NCBI GenBank assembly: GCA_018814355.1
Contig: JAHIZT010000077.1
Location: 1 to 36,666, forward strand
DNA length: 36,666 bases
Direction of reading: 5' to 3'
DNA from: Candidatus Thermoplasmatota archaeon
GTDB taxonomy: Archaea; Thermoplasmatota; Thermoplasmata; UBA10834
Part shown: one piece after another, positions 3,792 to 22,228 of the stretch
Layout of the letters: every line of letters begins with the position of its first letter
Position numbering within the stretch: position 1 is the first letter of the stretch
The notes under the pieces: generated by a model
Databases searched by the model: none
Told to the model about the DNA's origin: nothing
Seen by the model: only the letters and a program-made list of their open reading frames with translations
Program-made: the position numbers and the translations under genes

Positions 3792-3905
3792 GCAGGTGTA
3801 ATCTAGCTGGTTAGGATTTTGGCCTTCCAACTACTCCAAGAACAGAAAGATAAAATTGGAGAGGGACGAAAGCCAACGGCCCGGGTTCAAATCCCGGCAC
3901 CTGCA
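3792..3905 (+). tRNA. tRNA-Gly(UCC) with a 41-nt intron
   Basis: Acceptor GCAGGTG pairs with CACCTGC followed by discriminator A; CCA is not encoded. The D-stem is ATCT/GGAT, the anticodon stem TTGGC/GCCAA, and the T-arm CCGGG-TTCAAAT-CCCGG. The anticodon loop reads CTTCCA up to position 37, giving anticodon UCC at 3826-3828. An intron at 3830-3870 interrupts positions 37/38, the canonical archaeal site. It contains its own 6-bp helix CTCCAA/TTGGAG (3834-3839 with 3856-3861), consistent with a bulge-helix-bulge substrate. Removing the intron leaves a normal 73-nt tRNA. Confidence 0.95.
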
Positions 3906-18918: not shown

Positions 18919-19021
18919 CGGGCCTGAAGGGATTCGAACCCTTGGCCAACCGGTGTCTCCGACGATCCCTTTCAGAACCGAAGTAAGAGCCGGTTGCTCT
19001 ACCTAGCTGAGCTACAGGCCC
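18919..19021 (-). tRNA. tRNA-Lys(CUU) with a 29-nt intron
   Basis: Acceptor GGGCCTG pairs with CAGGCCC, discriminator G; CCA is not encoded. The D-arm GCTC/GAGC, anticodon stem ACCGG/CCGGT and T-arm AAGGG-TTCGAAT-CCCTT are all perfect. The loop reads CTCTTA to position 37, so the anticodon is CUU (plus-strand 18985-18987). The intron at 18955-18983 splits positions 37/38, the canonical archaeal site. The spliced tRNA is 74 nt. Confidence 0.95.
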
Positions 19022-19205: not shown

Positions 19206-20657
19206 TCACTGCTCGGAGAACTCCTTCACGATGTTCTCCAACTTCTTAGACACGGTCGCGTCCAACGGGACGGGCTTGTGGGTCTTGAGTATGTTGTCCA
19301 CCTTCTCCAGTGCGACCGTCATCGGATCCCTGGAGCCCTTCTTCACCCACATGTCGTACGGGTCGCTGTCCCACAGCATCGGGATCATGATTTCCCTCAT
19401 GTGCTTCAGAGTGTGCACCTGGGACAGGTAGCTCCCGCCTATCCCGACCTTCTTGATCATGTCGAGCGCGATCGTCTCCTGGTTCACTTCGAACCCCTTG
19501 AAGATGGTGATCGTCATCCGCGCGATCTCGTGGTCCAGAAGCAGCTGCTCGTAGGAGAGCAGTGTGGAGCCATCAGGAACGCCGAGCCCGTTGACAACCT
19601 CTCCCCCAACCCTTGCACAGTCCATCGCCATGGTCGTGTTCTCGAGGCACGCCTGCAGTCCAGGCACCTTTGTGCCCGAGCCGAATCCACCGACGGAGTT
19701 GGGCAGCTTGCAGTACCTGGACATCTGCACAGCTCCGGAGCACAGGAGGGTGCTCTCTGGTGCTCCGCCCATATAGGAGCCAGTCCTGGGATCCATACTG
19801 GAAAGAACTGAGCCGTAGATCACAGGCGCACCGGGCGAGTGGGCCTGCATGATGCAGACGACGGCCAATGTCTCAGCATGGTTCACGACCAGGTCACCAG
19901 CAAGGGTCACGGGCCCGCTGATGCCAGCCTGGGCCATCCCCGTGATGTGGAGGGGCACGTGGTTCTCCGCCCAAACCATCGCAGCGTCCGTCGCGGTCCC
20001 GTCGAGCATCAAGGGGGACATGGTGCAGAGCATCGCTGAGATGTAGTGCCTCCTCCGGAGTTCCTCGAGTCCGCCCATGACCTCAGCGGCCATCTTGACC
20101 TGCGTCCTTGCTTCTTCCACAGTCGTTGTGGATTCAGAGAGAAGGTGCTTCTGAGTGTTCTCCATCGCCACCTTCATCCCGTGGATGACATGGACCTTCT
20201 CTGGCAAGTCGGTCACGACGACCATCGGCTCGTAGATGCTGACATATGGAAGGTAGTCACTTATCACGGTGGTCTTTCTGATGTCCTCCAGGACCGGCTT
20301 CCTTCTAGTATTGTTGGCCGAGTCCCATACGGACACGCCGCATCCGTCCGTGGTGTAGTAGCTGTGGGTTCCGTCCAGGGGCAGGTCGAATTCATTCGTC
20401 CTGCCCGCCAGAACGATCTTCTGCGGGGCCTTGCTGACTAGCGACTTGACGACGTCCTTTGGAAACTTGACGTCGGGGCTCCTGTCATCGACTATCGCCC
20501 CCGCCCTTTTAAGCGCGGCCCTGGCGTTCTTGCTGTGGACCCTGATGCCCGTAGTCTCCATGACCTCGAGGGCCGCCTCGTGTATCATTCGTTTGTCGTT
20601 CTCACTCATGGTGTCTACCGGTTTCTGTATTCTGAACCTCTGCGCGAAGTCTGTCAT
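19206..20657 (-). CDS. MttB-superfamily (COG5598) methylamine/betaine:corrinoid methyltransferase, non-pyrrolysine
   Basis: 483 residues, an uninterrupted frame of family length. Features include the N-terminal helical part with ALEVMETTGIRVHS, LAGDLVVNHAETLAVV, PVIYGSVLSSMDPRTGSYMG and GAVQMSRYCKLP. Family members transfer a methyl group from a methylated amine such as trimethylamine or glycine betaine to a corrinoid protein. No TAG codon is present, so this is a non-pyrrolysine member and trimethylamine should not be assumed as substrate. ATG 20657 has AGGAGGA seven bases upstream; a GTG at 20666 would sit directly on that site. The next gene upstream on the same strand is a second MttB paralogue. 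No corrinoid protein, reactivase or MtbA-like gene is within the window. Confidence 0.87.
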   Translation of the reverse strand: MTDFAQRFRIQKPVDTMSENDKRMIHEAALEVMETTGIRVHSKNARAALKRAGAIVDDRSPDVKFPKDVVKSLVSKAPQKIVLAGRTNEFDLPLDGTHSYYTTDGCGVSVWDSANNTRRKPVLEDIRKTTVISDYLPYVSIYEPMVVVTDLPEKVHVIHGMKVAMENTQKHLLSESTTTVEEARTQVKMAAEVMGGLEELRRRHYISAMLCTMSPLMLDGTATDAAMVWAENHVPLHITGMAQAGISGPVTLAGDLVVNHAETLAVVCIMQAHSPGAPVIYGSVLSSMDPRTGSYMGGAPESTLLCSGAVQMSRYCKLPNSVGGFGSGTKVPGLQACLENTTMAMDCARVGGEVVNGLGVPDGSTLLSYEQLLLDHEIARMTITIFKGFEVNQETIALDMIKKVGIGGSYLSQVHTLKHMREIMIPMLWDSDPYDMWVKKGSRDPMTVALEKVDNILKTHKPVPLDATVSKKLENIVKEFSEQ

Positions 20658-20761
20658 CTTCTTCACTTCCTCCTGATACGCATCAGGTATTGGGCGACTG
20701 TTAGATATGCAATTGGAAATGGTTTGCTACGGAACTCGCCGAGACGCTTGAGGAATGCGGC

Positions 20762-22228
20762 TCAGTTCCTACGTCGTTCCAGATCGTCCGTCCCAAAGCT
20801 CTTTGAGTACTCTCTGACCAAGCTGTCGATGTTCTTCCTTACCTCGGTCTCGAGGGGCTCTGGGTGATGCGTGTTCAGTAGCTCCATCATGCGTTCCTTT
20901 GCACGCTTCTTCGCGTCCTTAGAGCCCATCTCGTCCCACTTGGTCCTCGTCCACCGGTCCGACAGCTTCGGCATCAGGTGCTCCTTGCGGAACTTGACCA
21001 TCGTGTCCATCTGCTTGAGATAGTTCCCCATCGGACCCACCTTGGCGATCACATCGACCGAGAGAGTGTCCTCGTTCACCTCTATCCCCTCAGCGAACCT
21101 GAGGGCGTTGGATGCAATCTCGTCATCGATGACCGATTGAACGGGTGAAAACGAGTTGAACGCCTCCGTGGACCCGATGAACAGGTCAGAGAAATCAGCG
21201 CCTGCGGATGCAGCTGCCAGAGCAGCGAAGGCTTTCTCATAGGCGGCCTGCTCATCGACCGCTTTCGAGTCACTCTGCACACCCATGTTGCTAGGAAGTC
21301 TGTAGTATTTCGCAAGCTGGACCGCGCCAACGCCAATGAGAGAGAACTCGGGAGACCCTGTCGCAGCCATGCTTGTCCTCATGTCCAGCGGACAAGAAAC
21401 GGAACCGTAGATGATCTTCGGAGCTTTGGTCACGCAGCTGGCAATCACGATCGAGCTGAGCACCTATGCATTCTGCTGGACCAGAAGCCCGGCGATCGAT
21501 GCAGGGGCGGTGCCTCCTGCAAGGGCCATGACGGTCACGAACACCGGCATGTCCATGCTTACGTACCCGAGCAACCCCTCGAGCATCGTGTGCTCGTGCG
21601 CGAGCGGGCTTATTGGGTCGACATATCCGCAGAAGAGCGGTTTCTTGCGCAGCATCTCCCTGTCGCCGTAGATGGCCTCGCCCAGCCTCATTGCCAGCTC
21701 GACATCATTCTTGTCAGTGCTCCCGCCGAAGGTCAGCTTGGAGGAGTTGATCAAGCCAGCAGCCATCGCAACGACTCTCTTGGCATTGTCAGGAACATCG
21801 CTCAATGACATCGGGACGTAAGCGATCTGGACGTTGTCCAGAGCGTCCAGCAACTGACAGCAGAGAATACCGTCCGCGAGCGTCGCGACCCTGGCCTTGT
21901 CGGTCTCCGGGTCTATGTAGTAGACACTCTCCGCTCCAGGGCCCATCTTCGTTTTTCCATCCACCACTTCGATGGTGTGCTTCTCGCTCCTTGCATGCCA
22001 CTTGAAGTTGTGCTTGCAGTTCTTCACGGCTTCCATCACAACCGGCTCATGCATCTTGACAATCCTCGTCTTCCGGTCGACCATCAATCCTTTCCGCTCG
22101 AGGAGGTCAAGGGTCAGATCAGAATTGACAAGGACGCCGGTCTTCTCAAGAACCTGGAGAGTGGCGCCATGGATGGCGTCCAGCTGATTCTTCTCCAATA
22201 CCTTCAACATCTGTCTCCTAGACACCAT
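20762..22228 (-). CDS. Second MttB-superfamily methyltransferase, interrupted by one in-frame TAG
   Basis: Reading from ATG 22228 through one TAG at 21464-21466 gives 488 codons, matching the paralogue downstream. Both halves belong to the family: QLDAIHGATLQVLEKTGVLV and LAGGTAPASIAGLLVQQN before the TAG, KIIYGSVSCPLDMRTS and GAVQLAKYYRLP after it. The TAG is codon 255. The aligned residue in the other paralogue is Glu (in NHAETLA), one base from TAG (GAG to TAG). Pyrrolysine in Methanosarcina MttB lies about 160 residues from the C-terminus, whereas 233 codons follow here, and the expected region reads SDSK. So this is a broken gene, a sequencing error, or pyrrolysine at a new site. A GTG directly after the TAG could restart translation. 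Confidence 0.75.

Follow-up and report, generated by a model that had tools for sequence, protein, structure and literature searches.

The window analysed here, a stretch of 36,666 nucleotides, is the entire contig C77 of a Thermoplasmata MAG of 2.06 Mb, which is 97.2% complete and in 135 contigs; the relatives with which it was compared are Thermoplasmata MAGs as well. Two MttB-family methyltransferase genes lie in tandem on its minus strand, and the upstream one of the pair is interrupted by an in-frame TAG. The features concerned are the following:

20762..22228, minus strand: MttB-family (COG5598/PF06253) methyltransferase gene of a non-pyrrolysine subfamily, interrupted by TAG; 488 codons, a PF06253 score of 271 bits with the stop read through, and an unbroken orthologue in each of seven same-genus genomes.
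21464..21466, minus strand: in-frame TAG, codon 255, in the column of a conserved Glu in an NAE motif; GAG or GAA in orthologues.
21275..21277, minus strand: codon of Gln318, in the column where L063 of the PylS-encoding relative G036 has pyrrolysine (TAG, the X of its GMXTDSK motif).
19206..20666, minus strand: tandem MttB-family paralogue, intact; Glu at the TAG column and Gly at the pyrrolysine column.

The minus-strand codons around the TAG read CAG AAT GCA TAG GTG CTC AGC, with 254 codons ahead of the stop and 233 behind it, the latter count reproducing that of the original prediction. The sole further stop of the gene is its terminal TGA at 20764..20762. Read through the TAG, the gene matches PF06253 (COG5598) over profile positions 22-494 with only this one TAG inside, and either piece taken alone still matches Pfam MTTB, the N-terminal piece at profile positions 22-274 (2.2e-33) and the C-terminal piece, in the same frame, at positions 277-494 (3.2e-40). 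The initial claim of an in-frame TAG inside an otherwise complete MttB-family gene of 488 codons is thus borne out. A chance fusion of two ORFs was considered and rejected, as the readthrough product is 67-83% identical to intact orthologues in either half. Within the MttB superfamily the window gene is an ordinary member without pyrrolysine, and its product is probably a methylamine or quaternary-amine:corrinoid methyltransferase. Known relatives demethylate quaternary amines and methylamines. For an order of related Thermoplasmata that are not methanogens, it has been proposed that MttB genes serve methylotrophy (PMC11264602).

The canonical pyrrolysine column was defined by the in-frame TAG of the MttB gene L063 in G036, a same-class relative in which PylS scores over the curated cut-off. 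This column lies 63 codons downstream of the TAG in the window gene, which has no TAG there and reads Gln318 in the motif GVQSDSK, so that the interruption does lie away from the usual pyrrolysine position, as had been suspected. The TAG column itself holds a family-wide Glu, in the motif NAE. Glu is seen there in the aligned sequence of the downstream tandem paralogue, in agreement with the original prediction, and also in L063 and in glycine betaine methyltransferase structures, while the other paralogues of the host genome that cover the column have Glu (n=20) or Gln (n=3).

A search for the machinery of pyrrolysine decoding, the absence of which had been proposed as a check, found none of its four proteins over cut-off in the host genome. 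PylS reached 34 bits against a cut-off of 178 in this 97% complete assembly, PylB 32 bits against 348, PylC 22 bits against 248 and PylD 19 bits against 150; a detectable set of PylS and PylBCD is therefore not encoded by the host. Each Pyl search was run with a control set of 14 genomes, exactly one of which was over the cut-off. Methanosarcina acetivorans has the pyrrolysine trait, and one control pass per search is therefore expected. Of the 20 genomes searched from the same genus, family or order, none had PylS over the cut-off. PylS did pass in two same-class genomes, indicating that the search works.

No CUA anticodon occurs among the 40 tRNA matches in the host genome. Most of these anticodons were named by ARAGORN, and the rest, in genes with introns or cut by contig ends, were read by eye from the anticodon stems. 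Since about seven expected tRNAs were likewise not recovered, this evidence lends support but is incomplete. Searching by pattern for a tRNA with the CUA anticodon gave a single match, on contig C41, which was rejected because it is not a tRNA. A PYLIS-like stem-loop was not found downstream of the TAG, where the fold is weaker than those of shuffled sequences (z = +1.5). Among the tRNA genes read by eye, two in the window contain introns and were missed by ARAGORN, at 18919-19021 on the minus strand, Lys(CUU), and at 3792-3905 on the plus strand, Gly(UCC). Elsewhere in the host genome, the tRNA L032 (C53:59207-59307, minus strand) was likewise read by eye, as Thr(CGU), and its D-arm region has an apparent insertion (intron).

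TAG is in normal use as a stop codon; its genome-wide decoding as an amino acid would extend all genes that end in it. Terminal TAG is found in 9/24 near-full-length MttB genes of the host genome and within the window as well, where the original prediction had listed at least nine such genes. The usage is confirmed, including for the ORFs called kbl, gcvPB, pantoate kinase and herA; the number is not, as terminal TAG is found in six of the 26 larger window ORFs.

Orthologues of the interrupted gene are found in all seven same-genus genomes. Each of them encodes Glu where the window gene has TAG, five with the codon GAG and two (G007 and G002) with GAA, and none has an internal stop. Conservation of the TAG in relatives, which had been named as a sign of readthrough, is thus not observed, and the disabling change is one that the intact orthologues lack. 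A TAG flagged in the G007 orthologue lies before the start codon and was rejected as a case of apparent conservation. Of the other stops flagged in MttB matches of relatives, those that were read precede the start codon or end the gene, except for the pyrrolysine TAG of G036. Where the other orthologues are invariant, private changes occur in the window gene at 2/107 columns before the TAG and at 1/108 after it (3/215 overall), a count as low as that of any clade member. A two-ratio codon model gives a low dN/dS and no relaxed constraint, a result to be read for its direction only, with synonymous sites saturated and the window branch at the upper bound. So few private changes imply either that full constraint on the protein lasted until very recent times, or that the TAG is an error.

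The host, in which no Pyl genes are detectable, carries a large expansion of non-pyrrolysine MttB genes, with 27 Pfam MTTB matches, about 24 of them near-full-length. A large MttB set is also present in the same-genus and same-family genomes, and relatives of the interrupted gene and its tandem paralogue are likewise adjacent in G004, G006 and G007. The only close paralogue of the interrupted gene in the host genome (L100, C124:57982-59432) is 61% identical to it, the next being 33% identical, and in the tree these two genes form one two-member subfamily. The C124 copy is broken as well. It is split near C124:58291-58320 by a one-base frameshift, which amounts to a one-base difference in a C run, and after the frameshift it has no excess of private changes (6/191). 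The other 22 near-full-length MttB genes are open, and the chance that both broken genes among 24 would be these two is 1 in 276, as counted post hoc. That both members of the subfamily are broken mildly favours a real recent loss of one methyltransferase activity over two independent errors, and the subfamily is apparently being lost in the host species. A further short C-terminal MttB remnant (L094, C95:1191-1478; profile positions 400-495) is not at the contig ends, adjoins locally repeated sequence and is apparently a degraded MttB copy.

The scenario that we favour, with a probability of about 0.6, is that the window gene would have been knocked out very recently, in one genome, by one base substitution in the codon of the conserved Glu255, which made it TAG. 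This was most likely a G-to-T change from GAG to TAG. Translation would then end after residue 254, leaving half of an enzyme that is most likely inactive, and the lineage may be losing the subfamily, given the frameshift in the one other member that the genome has. Less probable, though quite possible, is that the TAG is instead an error of the MAG consensus, due to base calling, low coverage or a mixture of strains, and that the living population has GAG and an intact gene. The assembly is in 135 contigs, the other broken copy has its one-base difference in a C run, and the absence of decay, with the rest of the gene under full constraint and no relaxation of its low dN/dS, fits an error of sequencing or assembly equally well. 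However, no other internal stop was confirmed among the listed MttB genes of relatives, many of which come from equally fragmented MAGs, and an error would have had to occur twice independently, both times in the one two-member subfamily. The original prediction had preferred a recent nonsense mutation, or else a sequence error, and either way this preference is supported by the Pyl searches and by the Glu in same-genus orthologues.

It is very unlikely that the gene has been split into a two-chain enzyme, with the N-terminal half ending at the TAG and the C-terminal half starting at the GTG directly after it. Reinitiation is formally possible at this GTG and both halves keep their family-level similarity, but the GTG is the Val codon of the family, which most orthologues share within an open frame, no relative is split at the TAG site, and no Shine-Dalgarno sequence is evident by eye. 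Even less likely is that the TAG is decoded, be it as pyrrolysine at a novel site, with the help of an amber suppressor tRNA, or through programmed readthrough. Coding constraint does persist beyond the TAG and the recovered tRNA set is incomplete; yet no stable structure follows the stop and, as far as can be tested, the TAG is not recoded, because PylSBCD are below cut-off, no CUA tRNA was found among the 40 matches, TAG ends many genes, the MttB genes included, the TAG is private to the window gene, and its column differs from the pyrrolysine column, which holds Gln. It is scarcely credible that the archaeon makes the methyltransferase at full length by means of an amber suppressor independent of Pyl, or of a readthrough signal, and places an ordinary amino acid where the conserved Glu would be. 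The novel pyrrolysine site that had initially been entertained finds no support either, with no PylS, PylB, PylC or PylD over cut-off and the TAG absent from same-genus orthologues. Since it is easy to take an in-frame TAG of an MttB gene for pyrrolysine, the value of the case lies mainly in its negative result: the position, the absent pyl genes, the use of TAG as a terminator and the orthologue comparison all point away from pyrrolysine.

With the pyrrolysine MttB L063 of G036 the window gene shares the Pfam family and a single in-frame TAG. However, L063 has its TAG in GMXTDSK and a genome with PylS, whereas the window gene has Gln there, its TAG 63 codons upstream and no detectable pyl genes. 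Non-pyrrolysine members of the superfamily are represented by the glycine betaine methyltransferase structures PDB 9yce and 2qne, to which the window gene shows a full-length family match (about 229 bits, query residues 19-489). The DSK motif without pyrrolysine is common to them and the window gene, while their QNAEVL motif has Glu where the window gene has TAG. The lesion itself would be an ordinary result. Like pseudogenes that have recently arisen by a single lesion in expanded gene families of prokaryotes, from which nothing distinctive sets it apart, the window gene combines one nonsense change and no other decay with a lesion private to one genome and intact copies in its congeners.
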